Origin: Flavobacteriales bacterium
GTDB lineage: Bacteria > Bacteroidota > Bacteroidia > Flavobacteriales_C > GCA-002722245
Reading direction: 5' to 3'
DNA length: 64,000 bases
NCBI GenBank assembly: GCA_023251095.1
Contig: JAHEZL010000015.1
Coordinates: 1-64,000 of the forward strand
A program made the translations under genes and the position numbers. The notes under the pieces are model-generated. The model did no database searches and was not told the DNA's origin. It saw only the letters and a list, made by a program, of their open reading frames with translations. Below, piece by piece: positions 954 to 41,735 of the stretch (position 1 is its first letter; each line of letters begins with the position of its first letter).

Positions 954-1814
954 TTATTGTATTTGTTGCACGTTAACCTGATGTTCCGAGGATTGTTTAT
1001 TTGCAGATGAATTTACAACTCCTGAAACAGGTAAGCAATCATCATAATCATATCCGTGGCAAATTTTAACATAATTATGGTCACATAAAAGTTTATTTGT
1101 AGGATCTATTCCAACCCAGCCCATTTCAGGAATATGACATTCCACCCAGGCATGCAGTTGCGATGCTCCGCGTGTGCCTTCACCCTCGTGTAAGTAGCCG
1201 CTGGCGTAGCGTGCAGCAACACCATTACTTCGAAGCAAACCCAAAAACAAATGGGTAAAATCCTGACAAACACCTTTGCGTAAATTCAGTACTTCTGAAG
1301 CTTCTGTATTTGTGGTGGTAACACCGGAAATGAATTCAACAGTACTGTGCACCTGATCCCTTAGTGCAATAATTTTATCCAATAAATTTCCCTCGTTCAG
1401 CCATTGGAAATTTGCATTTTCCTGTGGAGATAAAAAAGTTTTCGGACGCAGTTTAGTGAGATGAATAAATTTGTAATTATCGATGATCCAGTCTGGCGAC
1501 GACAATATATTTTTTTCCTGATCAACAGGTAACGACAGTCGTTCAAAGGGATTGAGATCCGGCACATAAATCTGCACCGAATAAGAAACTTCCAGTGAAG
1601 TGAATTTATTGGTGCTTTTAAAATAAATTTCACTCACTTCTTTTTGTCGCGCGTTGCTGATCCACCAATCTCCTTCCACATTAGTGGAAAAAACAGGATT
1701 GTTGATTTGCACGCCCAGTGCGGCATAGGGGTGAATTAAAAATTTCAAATATGCGCCCCAAACCTGAGATGCGTAGGCATTATTTGCCTTGTATTCTAAT
1801 TTATAGTGTTGCAT
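954..1814 (-). CDS. transglutaminase-like cysteine protease of the Anbu cluster
   Basis: A 286-residue protein with an N-terminal beta-rich region (about 1-100, the bacterial transglutaminase N-terminal type) and a transglutaminase core. The catalytic triad is visible: Cys183 in GVCQDF, His221 in QLHAW and Asp237 in GIDPTNK. In bacteria such proteins usually act as peptidases or amidases rather than crosslinkers. No signal peptide is seen, so it is probably cytoplasmic. It is third in the four-gene operon, one base from its neighbours on both sides, which indicates translational coupling. Comparative-genomic work on the family suggests that the ATP-grasp and alpha-E proteins make or modify a peptide that this enzyme and Anbu then process. 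The substrate is unknown. Confidence 0.9.
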   Translation of the reverse strand: MQHYKLEYKANNAYASQVWGAYLKFLIHPYAALGVQINNPVFSTNVEGDWWISNARQKEVSEIYFKSTNKFTSLEVSYSVQIYVPDLNPFERLSLPVDQEKNILSSPDWIIDNYKFIHLTKLRPKTFLSPQENANFQWLNEGNLLDKIIALRDQVHSTVEFISGVTTTNTEASEVLNLRKGVCQDFTHLFLGLLRSNGVAARYASGYLHEGEGTRGASQLHAWVECHIPEMGWVGIDPTNKLLCDHNYVKICHGYDYDDCLPVSGVVNSSANKQSSEHQVNVQQIQ

Positions 1815-23513: not shown

Positions 23514-25784
23514 TTACTTACTCAACAAAAACCCTTTACTCATTCCATCTATCATCACTGTAAAATCTCCTGCCTCCGTAATCCATTCGTTTTTAGCATT
23601 CACAAAAGCCAAGTCCTTAGGATGAATAACAAAAGTCACAATGGTGCTTTCTCCGGCTTTTAAATTCACTTTGGAGAAGCCTTTTAAGCGTTTGTTGGAT
23701 GGAGTGATAGAGGCTACTTCATCGCGAACGTACAATTGAACTACTTCTTTTCCTTCGCGGGTTCCGGTGTTGCTTACTTTAACCGAAACTTTTATGCTGT
23801 CGTTAAAACCAATGCTATTTTTATCGAGGATTAAATCGCTGTATTTGAAAGTAGTGTAGCTCAATCCTGATCCGAAAGTATATTGCGGATTGATGGCGTT
23901 GAATTTAAAATTAATGTCGCGGGTTTCCGATTTTTTATAATCGTAAGTAGTGAATGATCCAGTGTATCTTGGGTAAGTGAAAGGAAGCTTTCCGCTTGGA
24001 TTGGCATCACCAAAAAGAATTTCGGCAATCGCTCTTCCTCCTTCGTTGCCTGGATGATAGGCCATTACAACAGCATCCACCAATGGTTCAATTTCTGAAA
24101 TAAGACGCGGACGGTTTTCTACCAAAACCAAAATTATTTTTTTTCCAGTTTTTGCTAACTCCTTAATCAAATTGAGTTGATTTCTGTCCATGGTTAAATC
24201 TTCGATGTCACCAGGTTTTTCTGCACTTGGTTTTTCTGCTAAACAAACAATGATGTACTCGGCATTTTGAGCTTGTTTAACTGCCTCTGCTGTATTCACA
24301 TCTTTGTCGTAGGTTGTTCCTTCAACGTAAATTGTTTTGTCGGCTCCTATCTCGTCTTGAATCGCTTGAAGAATAGTTTTTTTGTCTTTGGGATTGTGTT
24401 TGGTTTCAACACCTTGCCAAGTGTAGGTCCACGCGCCATTTAAAGGATTTAGTAAGTTTGCTCCGGCACCGGTCACCAACACTTTTTTGTTTTTTGCCAA
24501 AGGCATAATGTTGTTGGTGTTTTTCAAAAGAGTAACACTTTCCAAAGCAGTTAAATAATTTTGATTGGTAAATTCAGCCGATGCAAATTTCGGATAAGAT
24601 TTGGCATCGTAGTAAGGATGTTCAAACAAGCCCAGTTTAAATTTAACTCTTAGAATTCTTCGCACTGCATCGTCAATTCTGCTCATAGGAACTTTTCCTT
24701 CGTTGACCAGTTCAATCAAGTATTTGCAGAAAGAAACATCGGATGGAACCATGCTCATGTCAATACCTGCATTGATGGCCATTGCCACTGCATCTTTGTA
24801 ACTTGCCGCAACATTGTGAACGTTGTGGAGCATGATAATATCTTCCCAGTCAGTGACTGCAAAGCCTTCAAATTTTAATTCCTGTTTTAATATTTCAGTG
24901 AGGATATGGTAATCGGCATGTACCGGAGTTCCATTGATTTCAGTAGAGTTTACCATCACCGTCATTGCTCCGTTTTTAATGGCTTCTGCAAAAGGAACGA
25001 GGTAATATTCTCTGAGTAAACGCTCAGGCATTAAAATCGGTGTGCGGTCTTTTCCGCTTACAGAAGCGCTGTAGCCTACATAATGTTTTAAGCATGCAGC
25101 CACTTTTTCAGGATTAGAAAAATCATCTCCCTGATAGCCATGGATAAGGGCTTTGCCCATTTGTGTGGCGAGGTAAGGATCTTCACCGAAGGTTTCAAAA
25201 AATCGCGACCATAATGGCTGTCTTCCCAAATCGAGAACAGGGGAAAAATTCCATGGAATGCCTGAAGCACGAACTTCATAGGCAGAAATAGATCCTGCTT
25301 TTTCAATCAGTGCAGGATTCCATGTTGCAGCCAATGCAAGTTCCTGCGGAAATATAGTAGATCCGGCAGTATACGTTGCGCCGTGAATAGCATCGATTCC
25401 ATATAATACAGGAATTTTCAATCTTGTTTTTTGAGTGGCAACTTTTTGGATTTGTGAAATCAGTTCGTACCATTTTTCACGCGGCAGGGCATAGGTTCCT
25501 GTGTTCAATATGGAGCCTACGTGGTAGTGCAATAAAATAGAATCCAGTTTTGCAGGATCAATTTCCATCGTTTTATTGTCATCAAAGGGAACGCCTTTGG
25601 CCACCATATCCAAGGTGAGTTGTGTCATTTGCCCAACTTTTTCAGCTAGGGTCATTTGGGAAATCAGCTTATCAATTTTAGCTTCAGTGTCGTTTTGCTG
25701 TGCGTACGAAGTTGTGTAAAAAAGACACAACAACGAAAGGGGTAGAGTTTTTATATTCACGATTTCAAATTGTTTTATGATCAA
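23514..25784 (-). CDS. glycoside hydrolase family 3 beta-glucosidase (BglX-like)
   Basis: A 756-residue periplasmic enzyme. A signal peptide (to about residue 29) precedes the GH3 N-domain, with KHY at 233-235 and the nucleophile Asp312 in GFAVTDWEDI. A GH3 C-domain (about 400-620) and a fibronectin-III-like tail (about 655-745, GKEVVQLYVRD, LKGFSKV) follow. Length and order match BglX. GH3 enzymes remove terminal glucose from beta-glucosides, so here it would finish oligosaccharides released by the GH16 and GH81 endoglucanases. The start chosen keeps the 12-base spacing common to the operon; a GTG at 25760 is a possible alternative. It is the last gene of the six-gene minus-strand operon. 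Confidence 0.93.
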   Translation of the reverse strand: MIIKQFEIVNIKTLPLSLLCLFYTTSYAQQNDTEAKIDKLISQMTLAEKVGQMTQLTLDMVAKGVPFDDNKTMEIDPAKLDSILLHYHVGSILNTGTYALPREKWYELISQIQKVATQKTRLKIPVLYGIDAIHGATYTAGSTIFPQELALAATWNPALIEKAGSISAYEVRASGIPWNFSPVLDLGRQPLWSRFFETFGEDPYLATQMGKALIHGYQGDDFSNPEKVAACLKHYVGYSASVSGKDRTPILMPERLLREYYLVPFAEAIKNGAMTVMVNSTEINGTPVHADYHILTEILKQELKFEGFAVTDWEDIIMLHNVHNVAASYKDAVAMAINAGIDMSMVPSDVSFCKYLIELVNEGKVPMSRIDDAVRRILRVKFKLGLFEHPYYDAKSYPKFASAEFTNQNYLTALESVTLLKNTNNIMPLAKNKKVLVTGAGANLLNPLNGAWTYTWQGVETKHNPKDKKTILQAIQDEIGADKTIYVEGTTYDKDVNTAEAVKQAQNAEYIIVCLAEKPSAEKPGDIEDLTMDRNQLNLIKELAKTGKKIILVLVENRPRLISEIEPLVDAVVMAYHPGNEGGRAIAEILFGDANPSGKLPFTYPRYTGSFTTYDYKKSETRDINFKFNAINPQYTFGSGLSYTTFKYSDLILDKNSIGFNDSIKVSVKVSNTGTREGKEVVQLYVRDEVASITPSNKRLKGFSKVNLKAGESTIVTFVIHPKDLAFVNAKNEWITEAGDFTVMIDGMSKGFLLSK

Positions 25785-25796
25785 TAAATTAATTCT

Positions 25797-26780
25797 TTAT
25801 GGTTGATAAGGAGTATTTGTAGTAAATGACGCATGATCGATAGCCACCGAAACTTTTTCCGATTGCGCGGGAACTGCATCTGAAAGAAGAATGAAAGCAA
25901 CTTTGGTTAATTTATCGGGTTTTCCGCCAGTGCTCACATCGTCCAATAAGCTTGCGTAGGTTACGCTTACGAGTTTCCAGCCGGTCCAATCCGGACGGAT
26001 ATTGATGTGTCGGGAAGCAACTCCGTCTTCATAAAAATTTATTAAAAGGTTGGTATTGGATTGTCCTGTACCATGTACCATAACATTGAAATAAACTTTG
26101 TTGCTATCGATTGACAAGGGATAATACGTGCCGTAATTGGTAGCTGCATTTTTTGCGAGAGCCTCTATGTAACACACGTACGGAGTAATTACTTTACTTC
26201 CGGGAGAGGTTTCCTGATAAGGAGTTCCTTCCATGAACAGATATTTATTGCCATCGGCTAGCGAATAGGGAGTATTAGTAACATTGATCGCTCCATCGTA
26301 TTTCTGCCATGCAAGAATTTTAAACGGAGTGGCAAAATCGCTGATCAACACATTGTTTTTATCCAGATTTTTTTGTCCGCTTACCGTCAGTGTTTTTGAA
26401 AAAACATCTGTAGTATGTTTGAAAGATAAGGTTGCTGTTACTGTTTCTGCCTGAAAAGAAGGAGCGCCATCGGCATAACCCGTCCATTTGGAACCGGAAA
26501 TATCCACAGTGTTTGAAATGCTTTCAAAAGTTTTTTTGGCACCGCTGGTGTTACCTGTTATTGTTACTATCCAATCGGTTTCCTTTTCAAATTTTGCAGT
26601 AAAATACACCTCTTCATCTTTAGAAAAATCAACAGTGCTTTTGCTTGCGGCGAAAGGCTCGGTTACTGTAACCGGACCGTAGATCCCCACAATAGAAGGG
26701 CCCAGGACATCTTTTCTGCAACCCGCCCCAAACAACAGCAGGGCAATAAGGCCAAAGTATATTAAAGATAAGTTCTTCAT
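25797..26780 (-). CDS. surface or periplasmic lipoprotein, probable glycan-binding
   Basis: A 327-residue lipoprotein with a clear lipobox (LLFGAGC, Cys21). The body appears to hold two beta-rich modules: about 40-140, a PKD-like region (FSKDEEVYFTAKFEKETDWI), and about 150-325, resembling carbohydrate-binding jelly-roll domains (INFYEDGVASRHINIRPDWT, WKLVSVTY, VAIDHASF). It sits between an outer-membrane barrel gene and the GH3 gene with 11-12 base gaps. By position it may do the job of SusE/SusF-type surface glycan-binding proteins, but it shares no obvious sequence with them. The ligand, probably beta-glucan, is inferred from neighbours. Confidence 0.75.
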   Translation of the reverse strand: MKNLSLIYFGLIALLLFGAGCRKDVLGPSIVGIYGPVTVTEPFAASKSTVDFSKDEEVYFTAKFEKETDWIVTITGNTSGAKKTFESISNTVDISGSKWTGYADGAPSFQAETVTATLSFKHTTDVFSKTLTVSGQKNLDKNNVLISDFATPFKILAWQKYDGAINVTNTPYSLADGNKYLFMEGTPYQETSPGSKVITPYVCYIEALAKNAATNYGTYYPLSIDSNKVYFNVMVHGTGQSNTNLLINFYEDGVASRHINIRPDWTGWKLVSVTYASLLDDVSTGGKPDKLTKVAFILLSDAVPAQSEKVSVAIDHASFTTNTPYQP

Positions 26781-26791
26781 AATTTCTTCAA

Positions 26792-28519
26792 TTAAAAGTT
26801 CATGTTGAACATTACTAAAATCTGACTGAGCGAATAATTGTTGGCAGCAGTTGCCTTATCCTGATAAGTAAACAAATGATCCTGAACAGTTAAATATGAT
26901 TTTTCGCTGAAGCGGTATTTCAATCCGAAAGCGATAACGCTTTGCGCTACGTTCATGTTTGTTGTTGTGTAATTGATGGTTAAATCATTGTACACATCTC
27001 TCACGGAAATAAATTCATTTCCTAAAGAAGTCAACATTTTGTATCCCCCCAAAACACTCATCTTTTTGAAAACCTCTACTTCCAAACCAAGATCCAGTAA
27101 ATTGTTTACCAAACTCACTTTTTCAAGAGGATCGCCACCACGTGTGGTTGCTTCGTATTGGTAACCTGCCGTTAAAATCACTCGTTTTTTCCAGTCGAAA
27201 AATTTATGGAAATTGAAATCAACACCTCCTTTTAATACCAGAAAGGTTCTTAATTGACTTGATCCTACACCGGCAATCTCCGACAAATATGCTGCGTCAA
27301 CATCCGCTACAATTTTCTCCAAAGAATCTTTGTATTGGCCATTTAACTGGATGCCTGTTCTGTTTGGCGTTGCTTTTCCATAAGGCTGAGCATTTCCGTA
27401 CATAGGGTTGTAAGTCATTAAACTTCTGGAGATTCCTTGGTTATAAATACCCGGATCTCTTACTAAGTCAAAAATGCTGATGCCGCGTTTCAGTGAATTT
27501 GCATATTGCGGAAAAGCCGAAGGAGTGTTGCTGTAATTTACACGTTTGCTTTGTGCCGCTGAGCTGTAAAATTCAGGAGCCACATAAGAGTAATTAGAAG
27601 TGATGATCAGGTGTTGGTTTTTTAAATTCAATTGCAAACCTGCATCGTAAAAGAATCCTTTGGTAGTGCCTGATTTATATGCTTTGTGTGCATTTTCTGA
27701 ATATCCGCCTTCAGCGATTAACGCCAGTTGAGTATTGGCGCCATTGATGATTTTAAAATTGATTTCACCCGATGCAACAGGGTTGTATAAAAGCACAGTG
27801 TCGGTTTTTAAATTTGCTGCTACATCAAATAAGTTGATATAGTTGGCCGCAATTTTTAATCGTGCACTTTGAGTGATGGTTATTTTTCCGCCGGCATGAA
27901 AAGCAGATGGAAAAGTAGCGTAGCTTGCTCTGTTTCTTAAAAAGAATCCATCCACTCTGATGGTATCGATAAGAGATTCATTGAAAGCAAAAGCAAAATT
28001 TGTAGCAGCCCCTTGTTGCCACCATGCATTGCCTCTGTTGCTTAGGTTTTCGTAGTTGGTATAATCTCTGCGCAAGTCGCTAAATATAAGTGCTTCATTC
28101 ACTGATCCTTCAGAACTGTTGTTGAAAAAAGTGTAGGGAGTTAATTTCATGTACAAGTCCCCAACCTGATAGTTGAAAAATTTGGCAACGGTTCCTTTCA
28201 CATACAACTGACGCAAAGTTGCTGCTGCTCCTGCGGTATAGAAACCGTTGAAGTTATTGCTAAAACGAACGATGGCCTGAATTTCTGTTTTTTTATCAGG
28301 ATTGATATTGATGCCTAAGTCCATCAAAACATTTCCGTTTGCCGTATGGTTCGCATTAGAATCACCGGGAGTATCCAGTGTATTCATTTGCTGAAACGCC
28401 CGGGCATAGGCGCCAAATTTTATTTTATCATCTTGTGCATTCAATAACTGAACGCTGATCAATAATAAACAAAGGATTATTGCTTTTTGATTCATGGTAT
28501 ATGTATATAAATTTTTCAT
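26792..28519 (-). CDS. outer-membrane beta-barrel protein of the beta-glucan operon
   Basis: A 575-residue exported protein. The signal peptide is the hydrophobic stretch KAIILCLLLISVQLLNA. Alternating beta-strand sequence runs throughout, and the C-terminus (QILVMFNMNF) ends in Phe, the usual barrel-assembly signal. No TonB box or plug domain was recognised, so it is unlike SusC. It could be a porin for glucan oligosaccharides or an outer-membrane scaffold. The longer start gives an 11-base gap to the upstream gene, the same as elsewhere in the operon; an internal ATG at 28495 is the alternative. I know no named family for it. Confidence 0.75.
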   Translation of the reverse strand: MKNLYTYTMNQKAIILCLLLISVQLLNAQDDKIKFGAYARAFQQMNTLDTPGDSNANHTANGNVLMDLGININPDKKTEIQAIVRFSNNFNGFYTAGAAATLRQLYVKGTVAKFFNYQVGDLYMKLTPYTFFNNSSEGSVNEALIFSDLRRDYTNYENLSNRGNAWWQQGAATNFAFAFNESLIDTIRVDGFFLRNRASYATFPSAFHAGGKITITQSARLKIAANYINLFDVAANLKTDTVLLYNPVASGEINFKIINGANTQLALIAEGGYSENAHKAYKSGTTKGFFYDAGLQLNLKNQHLIITSNYSYVAPEFYSSAAQSKRVNYSNTPSAFPQYANSLKRGISIFDLVRDPGIYNQGISRSLMTYNPMYGNAQPYGKATPNRTGIQLNGQYKDSLEKIVADVDAAYLSEIAGVGSSQLRTFLVLKGGVDFNFHKFFDWKKRVILTAGYQYEATTRGGDPLEKVSLVNNLLDLGLEVEVFKKMSVLGGYKMLTSLGNEFISVRDVYNDLTINYTTTNMNVAQSVIAFGLKYRFSEKSYLTVQDHLFTYQDKATAANNYSLSQILVMFNMNF

Positions 28520-28530
28520 ATCTGTTTTCT

Positions 28531-30486
28531 TTAGAACATTACTTTCAATTCAAGAGTGCCTTCATTTCCTGAGAATTTCTCAGTGGCGAAATTTTTGTCT
28601 TCAAAGGAGAACCATCTTTGGCGCAGGTACAAGGTGGTTTGACTTGAAAGGGTGAAGTCGAATCCAACTCCAACCGCTTTTCCAATCTGATCTCTTGGCA
28701 AAAGATTCGTTCCTAAATCCGTATCGCTGTTTCCTTTTACGAATTCTATACCTCCGTAAAGCGTGAGAATGAAGTTTTTGTGCAACTGATAATACACGTC
28801 CATTTCATGATATTGAGCTCTGATATAAGCGCTATTATCAAATTTGGCAAAGGCGGAAAATTGTTTTTGAACCGAGCTGAATGTTCCAAGATAGTTCACA
28901 TATAAATCGCGATTGAAGACGCTCATTTTATATTTTAATTGGAAGTCGAAAGCGTTGTAAAACTTTTTAAACTGCGCTTTTCCTCCGGCAAGAGTATCTC
29001 TTAAATGCACTTGTTCGTAGGCACCGCGATAGTAAGTTCCAACTCTGTTGTTGGGCCCGAACATTCCGGGAATCGGGAAATAGCCGGGTAATCTCGACCA
29101 TAATAAACTGTTCACTCTGTGTCCGTAATTTAAAACGGTGCTGTTAGAGATCAATTCTTTTTCTGCAGAAATCTGAGTACCTGTTGATACCATGAATTTC
29201 CAAACTTTAAAGTTGGTGTTTACTGCACCTCCCATTCGGTTGTTCGCTAAATCACCAACATTGTCGAGTGACGGACCAAAGGGCTGTAAAGAGGTGGTTG
29301 CCGTAAGTCCCTGATATCCGGTATATACTTCTTTAATAGTAGTATTGTTGAAATTAGCAACGTTACTGGTGAAGCTTTTTCCAATGGTATAGTAGCGGAA
29401 ATCCAAAGGAATGAAAGTATATTTTTTAGGAATAGCTACATCTAAAATTACACCTTCACTCCAGTTTTCAGGGTAGGTCGGACTCATATATCTTCCTGCA
29501 CCAACTTCACCTTTTAATGAAATGCCTTTTACTTTGAATGAAAACTCAGAAGTGAAAATATTCCACTGAACATCGTTTGTTGATTTTAAACTGTCGGATC
29601 TGTTGAAGTTGTTGAAAGTATTTAAACTCACATACATGTTGTCCTTAAAGTTCTTCTTCAAGCGCACGCCTAAATTTTGAGAAGGCTTTACTTCATTTTC
29701 TCTGTTAATGCCGCCGTTTGCGCCCGTTTTACCATAAAACACATCTATGTTGGCGTTGATTTTATTGATCAACCCGGTCAACATAAAACCTTTGAAAGCC
29801 TGTGTTCCAAACCTGTTGTCCTGGGTAATTGCTCCGCTGTAGTAGTAAGAAGCGTAACGTGTTTTTACATTTCCTGCAGGATCCCACGGACGTCTTTCAA
29901 AAATGCTGTATCTGTTAAAACCAACGTTGGCGCCAAAAGTGAAAGGAGTTAATTTTGTCCATTCAATACCACCGGCAATTAAAAAGAAATTACCGATAGG
30001 GGTATTGATATTTCCTCTTAATACAGCGGAGAAAAATGGACTCACTCCGGGAGCGGTACCAACGCCCGGGCCTTTGTAAACCTGAAATGGATTTCCAATC
30101 ATTACCTCAGTACCAAAACTTGTGGTGGGAGTGGGATTTCCGCCAACATATAAAAACATGGTAGGGTCATAATAACCATCACCTACGCTCATGCTTCGTT
30201 TGGGCCCGTCGCCATAGGTTTGATTCATATCACGGTTGTAAAAGAATCCTCTGTAATAACCTCCGGTAACTATACCGCTGAGGAAATCTTTGAATAAACT
30301 TCTGTCTACCGGAGTAGTTATTCCATCCGATGAATTGTCTCTCACCAAAGATTTTCTAACCAATGCCCAGGGGGTAAAGACCTGCTTCAATGAATCTGTT
30401 TCTGTTTGTTGTGCGTAGGTATTGATACCCGTGCAGCAAGCAAGCAGCAGAAGCAGAATTTTGTTTTTATGTTTTTTAATATGCAT
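28531..30486 (-). CDS. second outer-membrane beta-barrel protein of the beta-glucan operon
   Basis: A 651-residue exported protein with a signal peptide (MHIKKHKNKILLLLLACCTG and on to about residue 26). Repeated amphipathic beta-strands are visible (for example GVRLKKNFKDNMYVSLNTF, MDVYYQLHKNFILTLYGGIE). The C-terminal strand ends LELKVMF with terminal Phe, as in outer-membrane barrels. It has no plug or TonB-box signature. Together with the next gene it makes a pair of barrels where most Bacteroidota glycan loci have SusC and SusD. A role in glucan uptake or outer-membrane organisation is inferred from the operon. The gene is 25 bases after GH16 and 11 before the next gene. Confidence 0.75.
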   Translation of the reverse strand: MHIKKHKNKILLLLLACCTGINTYAQQTETDSLKQVFTPWALVRKSLVRDNSSDGITTPVDRSLFKDFLSGIVTGGYYRGFFYNRDMNQTYGDGPKRSMSVGDGYYDPTMFLYVGGNPTPTTSFGTEVMIGNPFQVYKGPGVGTAPGVSPFFSAVLRGNINTPIGNFFLIAGGIEWTKLTPFTFGANVGFNRYSIFERRPWDPAGNVKTRYASYYYSGAITQDNRFGTQAFKGFMLTGLINKINANIDVFYGKTGANGGINRENEVKPSQNLGVRLKKNFKDNMYVSLNTFNNFNRSDSLKSTNDVQWNIFTSEFSFKVKGISLKGEVGAGRYMSPTYPENWSEGVILDVAIPKKYTFIPLDFRYYTIGKSFTSNVANFNNTTIKEVYTGYQGLTATTSLQPFGPSLDNVGDLANNRMGGAVNTNFKVWKFMVSTGTQISAEKELISNSTVLNYGHRVNSLLWSRLPGYFPIPGMFGPNNRVGTYYRGAYEQVHLRDTLAGGKAQFKKFYNAFDFQLKYKMSVFNRDLYVNYLGTFSSVQKQFSAFAKFDNSAYIRAQYHEMDVYYQLHKNFILTLYGGIEFVKGNSDTDLGTNLLPRDQIGKAVGVGFDFTLSSQTTLYLRQRWFSFEDKNFATEKFSGNEGTLELKVMF

Positions 30487-30511
30487 TATTTCGATGAGTT
30501 ATAATGAGTAT

Positions 30512-31414
30512 TTATAGTTTTTTGTAAACACGAACGTAATCCACAAACATGTACTTCGGAAAAGTTGTTGCTTCATCCGGTGGTCCGGGCCATTCACCGC
30601 CAATCGCCAGATTGAGGATCATGTGAAAGCTTTGATCGAAGGGCCATCTTTGCGGCGATACATCGGTATTCTTTTTAGTGTTGTATAGCTCTCCATCGAA
30701 ATACCATCTGATTTCATTGGGTTCCCATTCAACGGAGTATACATGGAAGGCAGTAGATAAATCACCTTCTTTTGTTTCTATAGTATCTCCGAGATGTGAA
30801 TTGTTTGGCCATGGTTGTCCGAAGTGAATGGTACCATAACAGGTTTTTGGCTGGTGACCGATAGATTCCATAATGTCGATCTCACCGCTTTGAGGCCAAG
30901 TTCCGTAAACCCAGTCGGTAGGCAGCATCCATATTGCCGGCCAAACTCCTTGTTGTACCGGTGTTTTAGCGCGAATATCGAAACGGCCATAGGTCCAATC
31001 CGCTTTTTTCTTGGTATTCAAACGGGCAGAAGTATAAAACTTCCCTTTGTAATTTTGTTTGATGGCTTTTATCACTAGATATTTTCCGCCAACGGTATAG
31101 GAGTTGGCTTTCGATTTAGTATAATATTGCAATTCATTATTTCCTCCTCCGTCGCCGTTTACTTCATGGTTCCATTTGGTGGTGTCCACTTGTGCTTCAT
31201 TGAATTCATCGGTCCACATGAGGTCCCATCCCGGTTTTTTTGCCGCTTCTTTAAAACCGTTATCGGTGGTAGAGGTATTGTCGAGAGTAACTTGTTCTGT
31301 GGTCGATTGATACAAATCGGGTTGTTCAACCATTGTTACCGTAGAGCAGCTGTTTAAGGCAAACAGTGCAGTAAGGAGCAGACAGAATAAACCGGTATAT
31401 TTTTTTAAATACAT
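30512..31414 (-). CDS. glycoside hydrolase family 16 beta-glucanase lipoprotein (laminarinase-like)
   Basis: A 300-residue lipoprotein (lipobox ending NSC, Cys23) with a full GH16 jelly-roll domain (about 62-300). The catalytic motif GEIDIMES supplies Glu178 (nucleophile), Asp180 and Glu183 (acid/base). The flanking WPAIWMLP segment is typical of the laminarinase branch, and the extra Met (EIDIMES rather than EIDIES) marks the beta-bulge type active in endo-1,3-beta-glucanases and relatives. It is probably on the cell surface or in the periplasm, cutting beta-1,3-glucan chains. It lies 12 bases after the CBM-like gene, near the start of the operon. Confidence 0.94.
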   Translation of the reverse strand: MYLKKYTGLFCLLLTALFALNSCSTVTMVEQPDLYQSTTEQVTLDNTSTTDNGFKEAAKKPGWDLMWTDEFNEAQVDTTKWNHEVNGDGGGNNELQYYTKSKANSYTVGGKYLVIKAIKQNYKGKFYTSARLNTKKKADWTYGRFDIRAKTPVQQGVWPAIWMLPTDWVYGTWPQSGEIDIMESIGHQPKTCYGTIHFGQPWPNNSHLGDTIETKEGDLSTAFHVYSVEWEPNEIRWYFDGELYNTKKNTDVSPQRWPFDQSFHMILNLAIGGEWPGPPDEATTFPKYMFVDYVRVYKKL

Positions 31415-31426
31415 AATACTTTTGGC

Positions 31427-32014
31427 TTAGTTTTTAATTTTTTTTACGAAGCGGATTTCATCTAAATAAATGGTTCCCGTAGGCAAAACCATATATAAGA
31501 GTGTGTTCACTCTTGCGAGATCAGCGCCTTTGATGCTGATGGAATATTTTTTCCATTCGGTGCCGATTTCTAGGAAAGTATCGCTTACTTTTTCTTCCGA
31601 CAACTCACCGCCTCCACCGCCAACACCAATTTCAGGGAGAATGTACGGACCTGCTTCAGTTTCTTCGGCGCGGGCGTAAAATTCCAGTTTTTCAAATGTG
31701 GAGAGATCCGGTAGTTTTTGGTCGGGTCTTATGGAAACATTCCATGCGCCGGTAAATTGAATGTGCAATCCTCTCCATGCTTCGGAATTATCAGTGGTGA
31801 TCTTCATGCAATTGTCGCCTTTAAAAGGTTTGTCTTTCCAATTGATGTCGATCTTCATGCTTTTACCGTCTTTCTCTCCCATGAAGCCTGTAGGTATCCC
31901 GTGTTTAAAATAATCGGAATAGATATAGTAGCTTTCAACATCTTGCGGAAGAGCAAAAGAAAAAACTACAGCCATTAAACAAAGGGAGGTTATTATCTTA
32001 TAAGTTTTCATCAT
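31427..32014 (-). CDS. secreted CBM-like protein, first gene of the beta-glucan operon
   Basis: A 195-residue exported protein with a signal peptide (about 1-24, VVFSFALPQ). The mature part looks like a single jelly-roll carbohydrate-binding domain: IYSDYFKHGIPTGFMGEKDG, FKGDNCMKITTDNSEAWRGL, LEFYARAEE, and the closing TIYLDEIRFV strand. No catalytic motif is seen. It heads the operon and precedes the GH16 gene by 12 bases, which supports beta-glucan as its ligand. It could be a soluble or surface-associated capture protein; no lipobox is present. Confidence 0.78.
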   Translation of the reverse strand: MMKTYKIITSLCLMAVVFSFALPQDVESYYIYSDYFKHGIPTGFMGEKDGKSMKIDINWKDKPFKGDNCMKITTDNSEAWRGLHIQFTGAWNVSIRPDQKLPDLSTFEKLEFYARAEETEAGPYILPEIGVGGGGGELSEEKVSDTFLEIGTEWKKYSISIKGADLARVNTLLYMVLPTGTIYLDEIRFVKKIKN

Positions 32015-32431
32015 GGTGCGAATCTGTTGAATAAGTTAATAAAACAATTATAAGGGTTAATTATTCAGAAATCAAGTGAATTGAGAAATAATTTGCCCTA
32101 AATGAAATAATGTAAATAACTGATAATTAGGTAGTTAAATTAATACTATTTACACTTACGTAGCAATCATTCACTACGCTAAAGTACTGATAATAAGTTT
32201 AATTGTAAAAATTACACTAAGTTTTTTTTCCAGATAGGTAACAAAGCGTTCTGCACGTTGAGGTAAAAGATTTTTTTGAGTCGGGAGAGGCTTTTCTTTC
32301 ATTTTGTTTTTTTGAATCAGAAGAAGGTCTTTCGGATTTTTGCAGAAAACGCAAAAAACTCTTTTTCCTTTATGATAATATAATTAGCGGGGTCGGAAAA
32401 GAGAGTTGATCTTTGTCCAAAATTATTACTA
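32015..32431. other. AT-rich control region between the glucan operon and the P450 remnant
   Basis: No gene is seen. The left part lies upstream of the glucan operon (minus) and should hold its promoter. A candidate shared motif at 32132-32166 is listed separately. The right part (about 32230-32430) precedes the decayed P450 gene and may once have held its promoter. No riboswitch-like structure was recognised. Confidence 0.5.
32132..32166. promoter_or_regulatory. candidate shared operator upstream of the beta-glucan operon
   Basis: TAGTTAAATTAATACTATTT then ACACTTACGTAGCAA lies about 118 bases upstream of the operon's first start codon. Similar sequence with the same TAGTTAAA core lies upstream of the GH81 gene (41621) and of the CBM-like T9SS gene (34133), each 105-140 bases from a minus-strand start codon and in the same orientation. 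AT-rich 8-mers recur by chance, so this is a hypothesis. Confidence 0.3.
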
Positions 32432-33148: not shown

Positions 33149-34027
33149 TTAGTTCAAGAACAATCTTTTGGTAGTAACACCTTCATCAGATTTGATGCTG
33201 ATGTAGTAAAGTCCTTTTTCTTTTCCTGCTAAATCAATAGTCAGGTTTGATCCGTTTGTTTTAGAAGAATAAACTTCCTGACCCAAAATATTTGAAACAG
33301 AAACAGAGATCGCATTGGCGTTTAAGTTTAAAGTAACCAATCCGTTTGTAGGATTCGGGTACATTGCAAAAGAAGTATTTGCATTTACTGTTGCGATACC
33401 GCTAGGCAAAGCTGCTCCAATTTGTAATTTGTCGATTTTAATCATTCCGCTTCCTGTTAAAGCCATTTTATAATCAGCTGCATCAGACAGGCCTGCATGA
33501 TAAGTGTATGCGCTGCTAGCCCATCCCGGATTGATTTTGAAACGGATACTTGCAATTTTGGTAGAATCTACCGCTCCTTGTGGCGCGCCATTGTTACCAT
33601 AATTGTCTGTAAACTGCCCCGTGAAATCATAAGTGAAAACCACCGGAGACTGGTCTTTAATAATGGCAAATACGTTTGGTTGAGCTGTCAATGTTAATGG
33701 ATTATCTGCAATATGTCCTTGGTCGTCAACTAAAAAGATTTCAAATGCAACTGTTTGACTTGTGCTGCCTTTTACAGAAAGGATAGGCTTGTTTCCTGAT
33801 GTTGCAAAATTTAAAGGGGTATCAAAAATAATATCAAATTGATCCCATTCTCCGTGACCTGTTGGAGCTGTGATAGTCCAGTTTGATCCATCACTTGCAT
33901 GAGTAAAAGCACCACTTCCAACCGGAACCGGAGCTGTAGAGAAATCATTGCTATATACAATGGTTTGTGCATTTGCAGTTAGTCCTAAGAACATCACACT
34001 TGCAATACTTAGTAAATTTTTTTTCAT
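33149..34027 (-). CDS. secreted CBM-like protein with T9SS type A sorting domain
   Basis: A 292-residue exported protein. A signal peptide (MKKNLLSIASVMFLGLTANA) precedes a beta-rich domain (about 22-205). Segments such as WTITAPTGHGEWDQFDIIFD, PILSVKGSTSQ and a closing MIKIDKLQIG strand resemble galactose-binding-like carbohydrate-binding modules. Residues about 215-292 are a T9SS type A domain (MYPNPTNGLVTLNL, ILGQEVYSS, GLYYISIKSDEGV). No catalytic motif was seen. Between a glucan operon and the GH81 gene, it is likely to bind glucan outside the cell. It is transcribed alone and ends at a clear hairpin. Confidence 0.8.
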   Translation of the reverse strand: MKKNLLSIASVMFLGLTANAQTIVYSNDFSTAPVPVGSGAFTHASDGSNWTITAPTGHGEWDQFDIIFDTPLNFATSGNKPILSVKGSTSQTVAFEIFLVDDQGHIADNPLTLTAQPNVFAIIKDQSPVVFTYDFTGQFTDNYGNNGAPQGAVDSTKIASIRFKINPGWASSAYTYHAGLSDAADYKMALTGSGMIKIDKLQIGAALPSGIATVNANTSFAMYPNPTNGLVTLNLNANAISVSVSNILGQEVYSSKTNGSNLTIDLAGKEKGLYYISIKSDEGVTTKRLFLN

Positions 34028-34171: not shown

Positions 34172-34302
34172 GTAATTTTATAAAATGTTGATAATGAGGG
34201 TTGTTGCTACTTTAATCAAGAGCGCAGTTTGCGTTTAGGCAGCAACTTTTTCTGTAGTAAAACAATTTGGTGATTGTAGTAATGCTTGTTTTTGAGTTGT
34301 CG

Positions 34303-34587: not shown

Positions 34588-36450
34588 TTATCCTTTACTA
34601 TCCTCAGAATTCAACACCAACTGGCCCCATCCGTCCTGATCAGTGTTGGTTTTTTTCCTTTTTGCCAATACTTCGTGGATCTTTTTAGTGAAGGTCCAGC
34701 AGGTGCTCTGACGAAGTGTAAGAATATTAGACAACTCCAGCGAAGTAATCTTCTCCTTATTGGCAAATACCAAAAAGAGCAGGTAAAAGGCTTTATTGAT
34801 TGGGAATTTCAATTTATGAAAAATGGTATCCACCGTTGGTGATTCATCGTAGCGGCATTTGGTACAGCGACGGTAGAAATCATCTTTCCCTTCGCACCAT
34901 TTCTGATTGCCGCATTTTTTGCAGGCGTAGCCCTTCGACCATTTGAGATCCACCAGATATTTTAAGCAGCTGTCTTTGTCGGGAAATATTTTACTGAATT
35001 CTTCAAAATTCACTTCCTTCATTAAAACCCTGGCTTTGGTTAACTCCTTAACATTGGTTTTTAAAACTTTATTATCCGCATCCAGTAAGCCATTCATGCG
35101 ATTTATTTCTTCGTAAGCATCTTTGAGCTCCATGTTTTTTTCATCCAGATCTCTTGTTCGTTCGAGCACTTTTTCTTCCAGCTCACGATTCACCTTGTCT
35201 TTCAACTGTTCATTTTCTTTCAGTTGTTCAATCACCCGGAGCTGGGCTTCCTGTTGTTTGGCACGAATGAGTTTAATGCGGTCGCCTAAGGCGAAGGATA
35301 GAATGACAATTTCAAACACAAAACCAATATTGAAAGAATACACAAAGAAGATATTGTCGGTATGAATTAAGCCACTCATTCGGAAGGCCAGAAAAATGAT
35401 AGTGACAATCATAAACGAATAACCAATGATGAAGTAACGTGCCTGGTGCAAGCCTTTTTTAATGCACAAAATAGAGGCGATGTAAATGAATAAAAAAGGA
35501 AGGAGGTAAAATTCAAAATGCAGGCGCATGCCCATGATTAATCCTGCAAAGAAGAAGGCGATATAAAAAAGCATTACAATATTCAGCGCCGTATTAATTT
35601 TTGGCAACAGACTTTTGAGTTCTAAAAAGCGCTTGGCGTAAATTGTAAATGTTAAAAGCAGTAACAAGGGCGCCAGATTACCAATGACTAGGTTTACAGA
35701 CGGCATATTAGGCCAGATGTATTGAAATCCCAATCCGTCTTCCACCATCGAAATCATTGCACAGCAAATAACATACAGCACATAATAGAGGTAAACTTTA
35801 TCACGCAGTGAGAAAAACATAATCAGGTTATAAATGCCCATGATGGCGAGTATTCCATAGAATAATCCGAGCAAATAATATTCGCCTAAAGCATATCTTG
35901 TAAAAGAAGAAGTAGAGCGTATTTTAAAAATGAAGGGATTGTGATTGTTGGATTTCACGCGAACAAAATAGGTTTGAACAACAGTGTCGGGAGAGATGTC
36001 AAACACAAAGTTTTTGTGCTGGTATTTCCTCACACCAAAATCGGAAGTGAAGCCTGCCCTTTCTTTGATGTAGATAGTAGGATTATTGCTTGCTTGCTTG
36101 TACAATTCAAAATCATCAATGTGTGAATCGCTGTTTTCTAAAATGTAATGTTTGCTCAAAGGACTGTTGGCTTTGATGCGGAATTTGATCCAGTAGGCAG
36201 ATTCAGGATTGACTATAAAAGCAAATCGTTCGCTGTTTTTGTAGGGAATAAACCCGTTGAGGTGCTGAGGAGAATTAACGTCTTTAATCGTAAAGGTATT
36301 GGATTTGTCTTCCAGGATTTCTGTAGACTGACCCTCTATCAAATAATCATCGCTGATTTTTTCATCCAGAAGAATGATTTCCTGTGCCTTTAAATCGCAA
36401 GAAGTAAAGAGAATAAAAACACCAAGTATTTTGTAGATATATCGGATCAT
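34588..36450 (-). CDS. 7TMR-DISM membrane sensor fused to an IS1595-type zinc-ribbon DNA-binding domain
   Basis: A 620-residue protein. A signal peptide (about 1-22) is followed by an extracytoplasmic 7TMR-DISM sensor domain (about 23-180, a jelly-roll likely to bind carbohydrate; for example AYWIKFRI) and seven transmembrane helices (about 186-390, ending ALGDRIKL). A coiled coil at about 395-476 leads to a zinc ribbon with Cys510-x2-Cys513 and Cys529-x2-Cys532, and helical sequence (about 540-600, LKFPINKAFYLLFLVFANKE and TSLELSNILTLRQSTCWTFT). The last part matches the N-terminal region of IS1595-type transposases, but no DDE catalytic core follows. Known 7TMR-DISM outputs are kinases, GGDEF, LytTR or HTH domains, so this output is unusual. 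It follows GH81 by 79 bases on the same strand and may control the glucan genes. Confidence 0.85.
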   Translation of the reverse strand: MIRYIYKILGVFILFTSCDLKAQEIILLDEKISDDYLIEGQSTEILEDKSNTFTIKDVNSPQHLNGFIPYKNSERFAFIVNPESAYWIKFRIKANSPLSKHYILENSDSHIDDFELYKQASNNPTIYIKERAGFTSDFGVRKYQHKNFVFDISPDTVVQTYFVRVKSNNHNPFIFKIRSTSSFTRYALGEYYLLGLFYGILAIMGIYNLIMFFSLRDKVYLYYVLYVICCAMISMVEDGLGFQYIWPNMPSVNLVIGNLAPLLLLLTFTIYAKRFLELKSLLPKINTALNIVMLFYIAFFFAGLIMGMRLHFEFYLLPFLFIYIASILCIKKGLHQARYFIIGYSFMIVTIIFLAFRMSGLIHTDNIFFVYSFNIGFVFEIVILSFALGDRIKLIRAKQQEAQLRVIEQLKENEQLKDKVNRELEEKVLERTRDLDEKNMELKDAYEEINRMNGLLDADNKVLKTNVKELTKARVLMKEVNFEEFSKIFPDKDSCLKYLVDLKWSKGYACKKCGNQKWCEGKDDFYRRCTKCRYDESPTVDTIFHKLKFPINKAFYLLFLVFANKEKITSLELSNILTLRQSTCWTFTKKIHEVLAKRKKTNTDQDGWGQLVLNSEDSKG

Positions 36451-36529: not shown

Positions 36530-39500
36530 TTACCGGATAAGAGATACTCTCCCTATCACTGTTTTATAAGTTATTTTTTCATTTTTTCCCATCACTGAAA
36601 AGTTGATTTTGTATACATAAACATCTATTTGTGCATCATGACCGAATTTGCTTTTGCCATTCCAGCCTGTACTTATGTCGGCGGAAGCAAAAATATTTTC
36701 TCCCCATCTGTCGAAAATATCCATTTGGAAATCCAGGAGATTAAAGGCTTTTGGCAGAAACATATCGTTTTTACTGTCGCCGTTCGGAGTAAAAGCATTC
36801 GGCACATAAAAGGAATAAGGACAATTGTCATCGAAGAAAATAGTATCGCTGATTGCCGGACAATCGCCGCTGGTCACGCTCACAAAATATTGTCCGGATT
36901 GAGTAGCTGAATACTGCGCTTTGGTGCTATTGTCCTGCCATACATAAGTTCTATTGCTTGCGGTATCACCGGCATTTAAAAGCACCTCATCTCCCACGCA
37001 CAAGGTAGAATCATTTCCTAAATTTATTTGAGGAAGCGCTTTTACAATGATGACAACGCTTTGCGTGTCGGCCGGACAAACGCCGTTGGTGGTTGTCCAT
37101 AACAAAACACTTTCGCTGCCATTGCTTAAGTCGCTTACTAATGTTGCTGCTGATGTTGGATCGGCTATCGTCGCGCTTCCTGAAACTATGGTCCACAGCC
37201 CTGTTCCAACAACAGGAACATTGGCCGATAAAGTAGTGCTAGTGCTGCAAATGTTTTGATCTTTTCCTGCATTGGCTGCACTTGGTAAACCGTCAATGAC
37301 AATATCTACAGAATCACTTGTTGCACAAGTGCCGTTGGAAATCGTCCAGACAAAGGAGTTTTCCCCGATGTTCAATCCGCTGATTGAAGACGTTGGAGAG
37401 GAAGTATTGTTAAGAGTTGCTGTTCCGCTGGTAACAGTCCATGTTCCGCTTTCGGAAAACAAAGGGCTATTTCCCGAAAGATTTGCAGTACTCAAATTAC
37501 AAAGATTCTGATCTGTTCCTGCATCGGCAACGCTTGGTGTTGCAGCACTAACGATATTTACTGATGTGGAAGATGTCGGACAGGAACCGTTCACTATCGT
37601 CCATACAAAAGTATTGGTCCCCGTTGTTAAACCACTAACAGTTGCATTTGGAGAAGTAACATTGGAAAAAGATCCGCTGCCTGAAGACACTGTCCAGATA
37701 CCCGTTCCGGTTATAGCGATATTTCCCGAAAGCGTTATGACTGAACCACAAATAGTGCTGTCATTTCCTGCGTTGGAAGGAGTAGGCAAGGCATTAAATA
37801 CAACAGGAGTTCCTTTTGAAACCGACAAACAAGGATCGTTCAAATCAATTCCTCCGCTTCCATTGCCATTTCCAACAACAGATGAAATATAATAGGTTGT
37901 TCCATAAACCATAGGATTTGCAAAAGCAAAAGAAGGCAGCGTATTGCTTGCGAATACGGTTCCTAAAAGTGTTCCGTTGTTGCTGTGCAAATAATAAAGC
38001 AATACGTCGTCCCCGTCTAAAACAGTTGAATTTGCAGCAGATACAACAGCATTTGCATTTTCGCAAACACTGATTCCCGTTAGCGACATTGTTCCGGCAT
38101 CGGTAGCGCAATTGCAGTTTTTAGATCCTGAGACAATATTGGGTGTGCAATTGTTTTTGTCTTTTACGATAAAGGAATAAGCCGTACCGCTTGGAATAGG
38201 AGAGCTGGTAAAAGTATTGCCGATTAAAACTCCGGGTCCGCCAGGCCCTGCACCACTTACCAAAACCTGATAGGATAAAGAATCTCCACCGCTCATGGTA
38301 AATGAAACAGTGTAATCCGTTGTTCCATTACAGCTTTCTGAAAATATCGGAGTAGCAGGAGCCTGTGCATTTTTTACTATAATAGTGTCGAAAGCCTTGC
38401 AGCCATTGCCATCGGTGACAGCAACAAAATAAGTTCCTGCATTGGAAACAGAGATGGTTTTTGATGTTGCACCGGTCGACCAGCTGTAAGTTCCCACTAC
38501 ACCTGCATCTAAAGTGATGCTGGAAGCCTGACAAACAGCGGTATCTTTTCCAAGATTGATGGAGAGAGAACAGCCACAGCTTTTTGATCCGGAAATAGTA
38601 TCGTAAGCACAGAGGTTTTTATCTGTTACCAGAAAAGAATATGCAGAGCCACTAGTGATGGCCGAACTTGTAAAAGTGCTGCCGGATATGGATCCCGCTC
38701 CACCTGTAACCGAATAAGGCGCTTCTCCGCCCGAAATATCAAAGCTTAAAGTATAGGTTGTTCCTGCGCCGTTGCACACTGCCTTGATATTGGAGGTGAT
38801 TATGGTGTCTTTGAGTTGAACAGTGAAAGTGTCTTTTTTTACAATACAATCGCTGATGTTATAGCTTACATGATATTCCCCCGGCAATGAAGCCATGTAG
38901 CTCGATTGGTTTGCTCCGCCAATGTTGCTGCCATTTCTGTCCCACTGATAATTGCTGGCGCAGCTGGTATCTTTTGCAGTTAATTTAACAGGGTTGTTCG
39001 GACAAACCACATAAATACTATCGGGCTTTTTCACTTCCGGACATTTCGTGAAAACATACATCGTATCTGCTTTTGGCAGTAGAAAACATCTTCCGTCGGA
39101 AAAGGTGACTTTGCTTTTTGTGAATGCTCCTGCAGGATTGTACACTACATAATTTTTACAACCGTTTTTATTGAATACGGCATAGGTTGGCATATCGGCA
39201 GTAATGGTGGCATCAACGGTTCCCAGCTTATCCAAAGCACCAATCCATTGCATGGTATGTGCTTTTGTTTCTCCGGTTTCAGGGATGTACGAAGCTTCAT
39301 TGCTTGTAAAAGTGCTTTTCGCCGCTGAGGCATCAAACAGTGCCTGAAAGCACCAGATGATGTCTTTGAAATCTGTTTTAAGCGGACCGGAATAAGAGAT
39401 GATTTCGTTGTAATTATTTGAGGCATTTGTTGGATTAAGACCTAAATACAAAGAGCTTCCGCTGATGGGTAAAAAGCTTATTCCATGTACGTATTCAGCC

Positions 39501-41482
39501 TGAACTCCGGGCCAGGTGGCGCTTCCAAACCATGTTTGGTAGTCGGCTCCCCATCCCCATAAAATACCAACTCTATTGTGTCCCCAGGTATTTGGAAGAG
39601 TGATATTGTCTTCGTCAAACCAATATTGACGGGCGGCTTCAATTTCAGTGGTGTATAAAAAAGCCCCTAAATCGCGCAAAGTTTTATTGTCGGTTTCTGT
39701 TCCCCATAGCGCTACGCCTGAAGCAAAATTGATGGCTTCAGAACTCGATTCCTGATTGTTTCCTGCCGTGAAATTGGCGTGACCCGAAGCCCAGGAATGA
39801 CCGGCATAGGGATCAAAAGTGCGTAAAAAAGGAAACTGAGTATTGCTTCTGTCCCAATTGGCCACATCTTTAATGAGCATTTCAACCATAGGCCCCCATT
39901 GGGTTTCCCAAGTGTTGTTCGGTTCATATTTGGCAACCACTGCCGCTGCTTTAACGAAATATCCATATCCGAAATGATGATCATTTAACTGACGATCCGA
40001 TTCAAAAGCAGAAGGCATACCGATTAACGATTGCCAGTTGGAATCATAATAAAATTGATCATCGTTTGGTGCTGCCGCTTTTCCTGTAGTGAACCATCTT
40101 TGTAAATAATTTTTTGTCCAGGAAAGGAAGGTGTTTCGTGAAGTGTAATCGCCCACCATATCTGCCAATTCTGCTAAATCACATACTTTTTGTAAAGCCA
40201 CGCCTGCACCGTAAATAGCCAGTGAAGCATTGTCGGCATAGAAGAAATAGTTTTTTCCTTTTGCTACTTCCTGTAAAACATAGGTGGCAATTGCTGCTTT
40301 GTTATAAGTGCCATAATCCGGTAAAGAATGAAGGAAACCATGATTGGTGTGCGTGTTTACAAAAGAAGTCCCTTCAAAAACTTTCATTTCACCACGAGCA
40401 GTATTCGGGTAAGTATAAGGCGTTGCGGCAGCGGTGGTATGCAGCCATTGATGGCGGTACATGGCCATCAATGTTTTGGTTTCTGTGCTGTTGCCTTGTG
40501 GTTCTGTTTTGAAAGTAAAAGTGTTTTTTACTTCCGATTTACATTCATCATATTCCCATTCAACTTTGGTATCTGTGACAAAGGCGAAGGCGAATTTTGC
40601 ATAATATTCCAGGGTAGCCTGAGAGTTATCGGGTAAAAGTGCAATAGAAAAATAATTTTGTCCTGCAGGTAAGGATACTTTTTGTGCATCGCGCGGCACG
40701 CTGTTCGGAGCAGTCATATCGGCTTCACTTTGATTGAGGATATAAGTGCTTCCAAAGGTGGTTCCGGGCGGACAAAAAATTCCGTAATGCTTTCCTAAAA
40801 TAGTAACACCTCTTGCTACAACAGTTGCATTGGATACTGTTCCATAAGGTGTTGGAACTCCTGCCACATAGCGTAAAGTAGGATCGCTTGCTCCTGTTTT
40901 TTTAAAGTAAACGTAAGGAAATCCGTGTCCGGAAGTGGCTTCCAAAACTCTTCCTGCACCATCATTCCACTGCATCGTTACCGACCAGTCGCCATAACTT
41001 TTAACTCTCGTACCTGTACTTGCGGGAACATCCATCCCGTCCAATCCCACCCACAAATGATTCTCTCTGTAGTTGTGATAATTGTAAGTAGAGGTAACCG
41101 GGTTGTCTTCAGAAGTTATGTTTAAACCATAGCGGGTAGCTGCTACAATCAATGGGTGAGGATGCATGGTGAAGGAGTATGGAGCTATGATCCAGTCGGG
41201 ATAGTAAGCACTGTTTGGCATTTCATAAGACCAGATGGCCGAAGACCACCATTCGTGTGTGGCGATGGGTTGTGAAAACCCCGGTACTATTTTGGGCATC
41301 GCTCCCGTTCGGTCAACATTGTCAACTCTTTGGTAGTGGCTTGTTCCGGGAGCTGCATTATTAGGTAAAATAGTTGAGCCTGTTGGAAGTGAAAGAGTAT
41401 AACTGCCGGCTCCAACAGAAACCGATTGCGAGAAGAGAGAAAATGAAATTAAATAAGTGAGAAAAAATAATCTGATAGTCAT
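36530..41482 (-). CDS. glycoside hydrolase family 81 endo-beta-1,3-glucanase with T9SS type B sorting domain
   Basis: The ATG at 41482 begins a signal peptide (MTIRLFFLTYLISFSLFSQ); the frame opens 20 codons earlier at 41542 without one, so I use the inner start (1650 residues). The catalytic domain spans about 40-720, with the family motif DPYAGHSWASG and the acidic pair in NQESSSEA (Glu598 and Glu602 counted from the longer start). After it come SprB-like and PKD/Ig-like modules. At about 1250-1500 (longer-start count) lie three repeats of roughly 85 residues (GTGIWTV, SGTWTV, GTGLWTI). The end is a gliding-motility-associated T9SS type B domain (YVPNAFTPNGDSKNDMFLPK, FDRWGENIF). The protein would be displayed on the surface and cut beta-1,3-glucan internally. 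It is transcribed with or just before the 7TM sensor gene. Confidence 0.92.
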   Translation of the reverse strand: MTIRLFFLTYLISFSLFSQSVSVGAGSYTLSLPTGSTILPNNAAPGTSHYQRVDNVDRTGAMPKIVPGFSQPIATHEWWSSAIWSYEMPNSAYYPDWIIAPYSFTMHPHPLIVAATRYGLNITSEDNPVTSTYNYHNYRENHLWVGLDGMDVPASTGTRVKSYGDWSVTMQWNDGAGRVLEATSGHGFPYVYFKKTGASDPTLRYVAGVPTPYGTVSNATVVARGVTILGKHYGIFCPPGTTFGSTYILNQSEADMTAPNSVPRDAQKVSLPAGQNYFSIALLPDNSQATLEYYAKFAFAFVTDTKVEWEYDECKSEVKNTFTFKTEPQGNSTETKTLMAMYRHQWLHTTAAATPYTYPNTARGEMKVFEGTSFVNTHTNHGFLHSLPDYGTYNKAAIATYVLQEVAKGKNYFFYADNASLAIYGAGVALQKVCDLAELADMVGDYTSRNTFLSWTKNYLQRWFTTGKAAAPNDDQFYYDSNWQSLIGMPSAFESDRQLNDHHFGYGYFVKAAAVVAKYEPNNTWETQWGPMVEMLIKDVANWDRSNTQFPFLRTFDPYAGHSWASGHANFTAGNNQESSSEAINFASGVALWGTETDNKTLRDLGAFLYTTEIEAARQYWFDEDNITLPNTWGHNRVGILWGWGADYQTWFGSATWPGVQAEYVHGISFLPISGSSLYLGLNPTNASNNYNEIISYSGPLKTDFKDIIWCFQALFDASAAKSTFTSNEASYIPETGETKAHTMQWIGALDKLGTVDATITADMPTYAVFNKNGCKNYVVYNPAGAFTKSKVTFSDGRCFLLPKADTMYVFTKCPEVKKPDSIYVVCPNNPVKLTAKDTSCASNYQWDRNGSNIGGANQSSYMASLPGEYHVSYNISDCIVKKDTFTVQLKDTIITSNIKAVCNGAGTTYTLSFDISGGEAPYSVTGGAGSISGSTFTSSAITSGSAYSFLVTDKNLCAYDTISGSKSCGCSLSINLGKDTAVCQASSITLDAGVVGTYSWSTGATSKTISVSNAGTYFVAVTDGNGCKAFDTIIVKNAQAPATPIFSESCNGTTDYTVSFTMSGGDSLSYQVLVSGAGPGGPGVLIGNTFTSSPIPSGTAYSFIVKDKNNCTPNIVSGSKNCNCATDAGTMSLTGISVCENANAVVSAANSTVLDGDDVLLYYLHSNNGTLLGTVFASNTLPSFAFANPMVYGTTYYISSVVGNGNGSGGIDLNDPCLSVSKGTPVVFNALPTPSNAGNDSTICGSVITLSGNIAITGTGIWTVSSGSGSFSNVTSPNATVSGLTTGTNTFVWTIVNGSCPTSSTSVNIVSAATPSVADAGTDQNLCNLSTANLSGNSPLFSESGTWTVTSGTATLNNTSSPTSSISGLNIGENSFVWTISNGTCATSDSVDIVIDGLPSAANAGKDQNICSTSTTLSANVPVVGTGLWTIVSGSATIADPTSAATLVSDLSNGSESVLLWTTTNGVCPADTQSVVIIVKALPQINLGNDSTLCVGDEVLLNAGDTASNRTYVWQDNSTKAQYSATQSGQYFVSVTSGDCPAISDTIFFDDNCPYSFYVPNAFTPNGDSKNDMFLPKAFNLLDFQMDIFDRWGENIFASADISTGWNGKSKFGHDAQIDVYVYKINFSVMGKNEKITYKTVIGRVSLIR

Positions 41483-41620
41483 CTTTACAGGATTACGTTC
41501 AGAAAGAAAATTAGTTTGTATCCAAAAATTAGCTGTAAGCATAATCCTAATTTAATGTTAATCTTAGCGGAAACAAAGTTAAACTGCTAAAAGTTACAGC
41601 ATAATATGTTGATTTACAGA

Positions 41621-41658
41621 TAGTTAAATTGCTACCAATTTGCGTTTACACAGCAATA
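41621..41658. promoter_or_regulatory. candidate shared operator upstream of GH81
   Basis: TAGTTAAATTGCTACCAATT, then TGCGTTTACACAGCAATA lies 139 bases upstream of the GH81 start codon. It shares TAGTTAAATT and TTTACAC...GCAA with the motif upstream of the glucan operon, and TTGCGTTTA with that upstream of the CBM-like gene. Function is hypothetical. Confidence 0.3.
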
Positions 41659-41735
41659 AGTGAACTTATTAAGTTATTGAATATTAGTTTTTTATGATTT
41701 TACAGTAGGGTGTAATTTTGCACATAGAAAACAAT

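Follow-up and report, generated by a model that had tools for sequence, protein, structure and literature searches.

On the minus strand of the window (the whole stretch of DNA analysed here, 64,000 nucleotides), positions 34588-36450 form a single open frame of 620 aa with an ATG start, in which a 7TMR-DISM receptor is joined to the front end of an IS1595-type transposase. Reading from the N-terminus, the protein has a likely signal peptide (residues 1-22; 36385-36450), read from the sequence as a hydrophobic run ending in KAQ; a 7TMR-DISMED2 extracytoplasmic sensor domain (residues 40-176; 35923-36333; Pfam PF07696, E 1.3e-20); a 7TMR-DISM membrane domain (residues 190-391; 35278-35883), placed by the AF2 model and by Pfam PF07695, which is covered at full length (E 4e-46, 158 bits); a signalling helix or coiled coil (residues 392-478; 35017-35277; RELEEKVLERTRDL), placed from the AF2 model and the sequence; an IS1595-type zinc ribbon (residues 491-534; 34849-34980; PF12760), whose cysteines 510, 513, 529 and 532 are invariant in the alignment; and HTH-like helices (residues 548-602; 34645-34809), matched by the NCBIfam IS1595 transposase model NF033547. 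All of these lie on the minus strand. The receptor half is that of an ordinary 7TMR-DISM, and Pfam gave no match to a histidine kinase or receiver domain in the protein.

The PF12760 zinc ribbon scores E 4.7e-5 in the whole protein, which is under the cut-off, and E 6.8e-6 with the tail alone as query, which is above the curated cut-off. The NF033547 match (26.6 bits against a cut-off of 75) spans just positions 3-58 of the 215 in the model, which means that the protein retains no more than the front end of a transposase; all 53 fusion tails end before the DDE core, and both models match 12 of 12 fusion tails tested. A search of solved structures with the tail returned no significant match. 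The AF2 model, made from a three-sequence alignment (mean pLDDT 54), is informative for the 7TM part only, the tail being of low confidence; it has seven long helices, one of which (residues 366-467) carries TM7 unbroken into the signalling helix. The first-pass annotation had described a 7TM sensor leading through a coiled coil into a zinc ribbon and HTH-like helices, had assigned this output to the IS1595 type and had called the DDE core absent, and each of these elements proved correct against Pfam, NCBIfam and the AF2 model.

Spread of the fusion

The same architecture was read in 52 further full-length copies from several families, two of them in the window's genus. The CxxC...CxxC pattern is present in 53 of 53 fusion proteins, with a C-terminus of 82-108 aa after the ribbon, and an alignment of 13 proteins shows no variation in the four ribbon cysteines or in many residues of the sensor. 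Sampling 395 genomes across the phylum gave ten other fusions in four families, and in one family of genomes (f9; the families are designated f1, f2, f3, f9 and f10) matches occur in 107 of 196 genomes, mostly in frames of 600-700 aa. The combination had been taken for an unusual one; with ten fusions in the phylum-wide sample and roughly 100 in the 196 f9 genomes, it is not rare.

The first-pass annotation had also raised the possibility of two genes joined by an assembly error, which the 52 other full-length fusions rule out. More broadly, the transposase origin of the output domain might suggest a functionless product of chance transposon insertion or misjoined assembly, but the fusion recurs in several families with residues conserved throughout, and the genome has no other IS1595 copy; the gene is the sole PF12760 match in its own genome, leaving no nearby transposon as a source of misassembly. 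We give this explanation next to no weight.

Origin of the tail

In a tree of 92 tails, 53 of them from fusions, one branch (support 95/77) sets the fusion tails apart, and a single origin appears in 94% of bootstrap trees; the inner forks are uncertain because only 145 columns were available. The fusion clade is nested in a small supported IS1595 subgroup which includes an intact transposase, L085 (motifs VEVDETYVGG and TDKWSGY), along with nine diverged copies from genome G171. Since there is one fusion clade within a subgroup that keeps an intact transposase, a single domestication of the DNA-binding part of an IS1595 transposase would be the simplest reading of these sequences. Independent captures are unnecessary, as one branch parts the fusions from the transposases.

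The G171 genome itself (L015, L052-L060, L063-L071) holds at least nine IS1595-like genes of ~300-330 aa, scattered singly and with ~70-90% DNA identity, in which the ribbon and HTH are intact and the DDE motifs degenerate. These are possibly standalone domesticated transposases; despite the degenerate DDE, a role as PUL regulators was rejected, most copies lying away from susCD. Two shorter proteins were also seen: one of 137 aa (L050, genome G169, 1197-1607, minus strand), which has the ribbon and HTH only, with no receptor, and branches beside the fusion clade, and a ribbon and HTH protein of 185 aa with a shortened remainder (L051, genome G211, 9888-10442), just 3' of a susC-susD-like locus.

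Genomic neighbourhood

Outside the window's genus, 43 of 50 fusions have a susC-susD pair downstream on the same strand; among 20 random 18-kb regions from the same genomes, one does. In the unselected phylum sample, susC and susD follow all ten distant fusions on the same strand after 0-3 genes, and at 40 further loci (mostly one per genus, mostly f9) susC-susD is downstream on the same strand in 33. The remaining seven of the 50 are near susC/susD or glycan-degradation genes instead: susC/susD is divergent or upstream at L126, L140 and L153, GH10 or GH43 genes lie beside L157-L159, and GH3 lies beside L141. The first-pass annotation had proposed to check whether the fusion always sits by glycan genes; at these 50 loci the neighbours are susC-susD in 43 and susD or glycan-degradation genes in the remainder. 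The PUL enzymes at fusion loci include GH3, GH5, GH2, GH16, the PF10091 'glycoamylase' family and chondroitinase B, a variety which points to substrates other than glucans at some loci.

In the window's genus, the fusion lies near GH81, GH16 and GH3 genes and genes for secreted proteins, and no susC-susD pair is adjacent in the window. The fusion and GH81 occur together in three genomes (G000, G007 and G009), and neither occurs in the other seven genomes of the GTDB family.

A predicted operator motif

The gap between the fusion and the next gene is ~170-590 bp, mostly 200-350, a size which leaves room for a promoter. A motif search in 46 such gaps gave an 18-bp motif, TGTTTTTtAAGCGTaAAA, almost always on the coding strand; the predicted operator approximates TG-N6-AAGCG-N2-AAA and often occurs as direct repeats. 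Its log-likelihood is 177-182, against 48-62 for eight shuffled sets. The best score reaches at least 12 bits in 37 of 46 gaps, compared with 1 of 30 other susC promoters that have no fusion (same genomes, same strand); on the opposite strand, two of these controls reach 14.6 and 17.3 bits. Second sites on the same strand lie 64-66 bp from the first in 20 of 27 cases. With a matrix built from f9 only, the motif is clear in f1 (p <0.01) and in the window's genus (p 0.006-0.008), and weak in f2, f3 and f10 (p 0.05-0.15, with none at two loci). The evidence for this predicted operator is firm in two families (f9 and f1) and weak in three, and no convincing site was found at the seven fusions that have no downstream susC-susD.

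Sequence divergence among the operator sites correlates with divergence among the tails (Mantel r 0.47, p 0.0005; 0.10-0.40 for flanking offsets), and six loci with LG-x-NT in place of LR-x-NT in the HTH have no AAGCG core in their site; both associations are confounded by shared descent. The six loci form one clade and so count as one event, and this change in the HTH together with the loss of AAGCG is only suggestive of a link between protein and motif. We also asked whether the operator was copied from the ends of the insertion sequence, which is unsupported: the sole clear inverted-repeat end read, that of the cousin transposase L094 (TTGGAATTGCCC), is unlike the operator motif, and none was read for L085.

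The f9 gaps hold a second motif, CCGAAAACGATTGca, of much the same strength (log-likelihood near 180; for example at L130, L133, L134 and L149), so another regulator of the same PULs may act there. This second motif resembles LacI-type operators. Alternatively, the fusion could be a glycan-locus regulator that acts elsewhere or via a partner, with the paired motif belonging to another factor (a global regulator or an alternative promoter element), and the weakness of the sites in f2, f3 and f10 and the seven fusions with no good site nearby would fit such an arrangement as well. The motif is, however, seldom seen upstream of the 30 susC genes taken from the same genomes as controls and also occurs in the window's genus, in which genes other than susC lie beside the fusion, and site divergence tracks tail divergence, down to the LG-x-NT clade and its missing AAGCG core, with the confounding by descent noted above. 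On balance, we consider it unlikely that the motif is another factor's.

The motif also bears on what the tail does. Zinc ribbons often mediate protein contacts and the model of the tail is of low confidence, which would be consistent with a signalling receptor whose tail no longer binds DNA and instead serves, stabilised by zinc, in protein interaction or dimerisation. Yet the ribbon and the HTH-like helices are both retained in all tails examined, and a conserved non-coding motif beside the gene suits a DNA-binding role, such that the loss of DNA binding seems to us quite improbable.

Predicted operators in the window

The 36 promoters of the window were ranked for paired sites with a matrix built without the window's genus. 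The promoter of the GH81 gene came first and that of the GH16...GH3 operon third; the second belongs to the gene at 6553-7911, whose secreted product has a lectin-like Laminin_G_3 domain. The predicted GH81 target (36530-41542, minus strand) is a 1670-aa glucanase in which Pfam finds a CHU_C type IX secretion domain, and it is preceded on the same strand by predicted site 1 at 41716-41733 (TGTTTTCTATGTGCAAAA), the top-scoring site in the window, and site 2 at 41638-41655 (TGCTGTGTAAACGCAAAT), 78 bp away. The predicted target operon (23514-32014, minus strand) encodes a protein of 195 aa, GH16 (30512-31414), three proteins with no Pfam match (327, 575 and 651 aa, at 25797-30486) and GH3 (23514-25784); its predicted sites on the minus strand are at 32226-32243 (TGTTACCTATCTGGAAAA) and 32148-32165 (TGCTACGTAAGTGTAAAT), likewise with a spacing of 78 bp. 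The pairs stand at -191 before GH81 and -229 before the operon. G007 has both pairs at corresponding positions, and G009 for the most part does too, with a spacing of 88 bp before GH81; related repeats in the genus are mostly 77-79 bp apart. A weaker predicted operator, TGCTGCCTAAACGCAAAC (34227-34244), with an adjoining match at 34247-34264 (together 34227-34264, minus strand), precedes a 292-aa secreted protein with a Por_Secre_tail domain (33149-34027, minus strand; Pfam), which is a possible target; this site aligns with sites in G007 and G009. No good site was found before the fusion gene in the scan of window promoters, and autoregulation was set aside.

Elsewhere in the same genome, a search with the strict pattern, which is too degenerate for defining a regulon, gave a single exact match. 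It lies ahead of the gene for a T9SS protein that has a legume-lectin domain, and a partner site follows at a distance of 88 bp. The neighbouring T9SS gene has predicted paired sites with a spacing of 78 bp, making these two large T9SS proteins (G000, contig C16, L240, 3633-11936) candidate further targets. A second GH81 gene in this genome has a weaker predicted pair. The first-pass annotation had suggested the glucan locus as the target; the predicted site pairs ahead of GH81 and the GH16...GH3 operon support this, as does the co-occurrence of the fusion with GH81.

Discussion

Here, we propose that the fusion regulates the transcription of glycan-utilisation genes as a membrane-anchored, one-component protein, which we regard as likely. 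The architecture, the missing core, the single clade, the PUL linkage and the conserved paired motif were computed directly. That the protein may be a membrane-bound transcription factor at glycan loci had been put forward on first reading, and the domains, the tail clade and the PUL linkage speak for it. In short, the fusion is probably an on/off switch for complex-sugar use that has so far gone undescribed.

How might such a switch work? The periplasmic DISMED2 domain would bind a glycan breakdown product and thereby cause a change in the 7TM bundle, and the signal would travel down the long helix that continues TM7. In the cytoplasm, the IS1595-derived ribbon and HTH would bind paired direct repeats before glycan genes, and the bound protein would change the transcription of these neighbours, whether by activation or by repression. 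The target would be the susC-susD operon in most species and, in the window's genus, a secreted beta-glucanase locus (GH81, GH16 and GH3). The DNA-binding part would have come once from an IS1595 transposase, with the catalytic core then lost.

The 7TMR-DISM receptors were reportedly defined in a 2003 paper, and the outputs described for them are kinases, GGDEF and HTH-type domains. The fusion shares with these receptors (PF07695/PF07696) the sensor, the membrane domains and the long helix after TM7; it differs in its output, which is IS1595-derived in place of, for example, GGDEF (PMC5342196). A precedent is given by the ChiS-family DBD proteins of Proteobacteria (PMC8092284), which like the fusion have a 7TMR-DISM and a DNA-binding domain in one piece, but whose DNA-binding domain has a different fold with a cryptic HTH and is not transposase-derived. 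The fusion tail is accounted for by IS1595 models. The first-pass annotation needs correcting to this extent, that a DNA-binding output on a 7TMR-DISM is already known from the ChiS family (PMC8092284). With IS1595-family transposases (NF033547, PF12760), of which L085 is the nearest intact relative, the fusion has in common the zinc ribbon and the front-end helices; unlike them, it has no DDE core, is fused to a receptor and is a single-copy chromosomal gene by glycan loci.

To our knowledge, many environmental Bacteroidota PULs have no assigned regulator. A 2024 review gives hybrid two-component systems, ECF-sigma factors and catabolite repression as the only canonical regulators of hemicellulases and PULs (PMC10766802). 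The hybrid two-component and ECF-sigma/anti-sigma regulators (PMC10766802) and SusR are encoded beside the susCD genes that they control, and the fusion is likewise adjacent to susC-susD at most loci outside the window's genus. In contrast to these, the fusion has no kinase, receiver, AraC domain or sigma factor; its sensor and DNA-binding part are one chain with no phosphotransfer domains. Our literature search, of partial coverage such that an earlier mention is possible, found nothing linking 7TMR-DISM receptors to PULs or to IS1595 ribbons.

Taken more widely, it is likely, if somewhat less so than the regulatory role itself, that the fusions are a widespread class of Bacteroidota glycan regulators, in which a once-domesticated transposase DNA-binding domain is carried on a 7TM sensor and acts through direct-repeat operators of fixed spacing. 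If so, this would be a new class of PUL regulator and a one-component counterpart of the hybrid two-component systems. The target genes could be read from sequence by way of the predicted operator, and the ligand could be found through the content of the PUL. The fusion would also illustrate clearly how the DNA-binding domain of a bacterial transposase can be domesticated as the output of a receptor.
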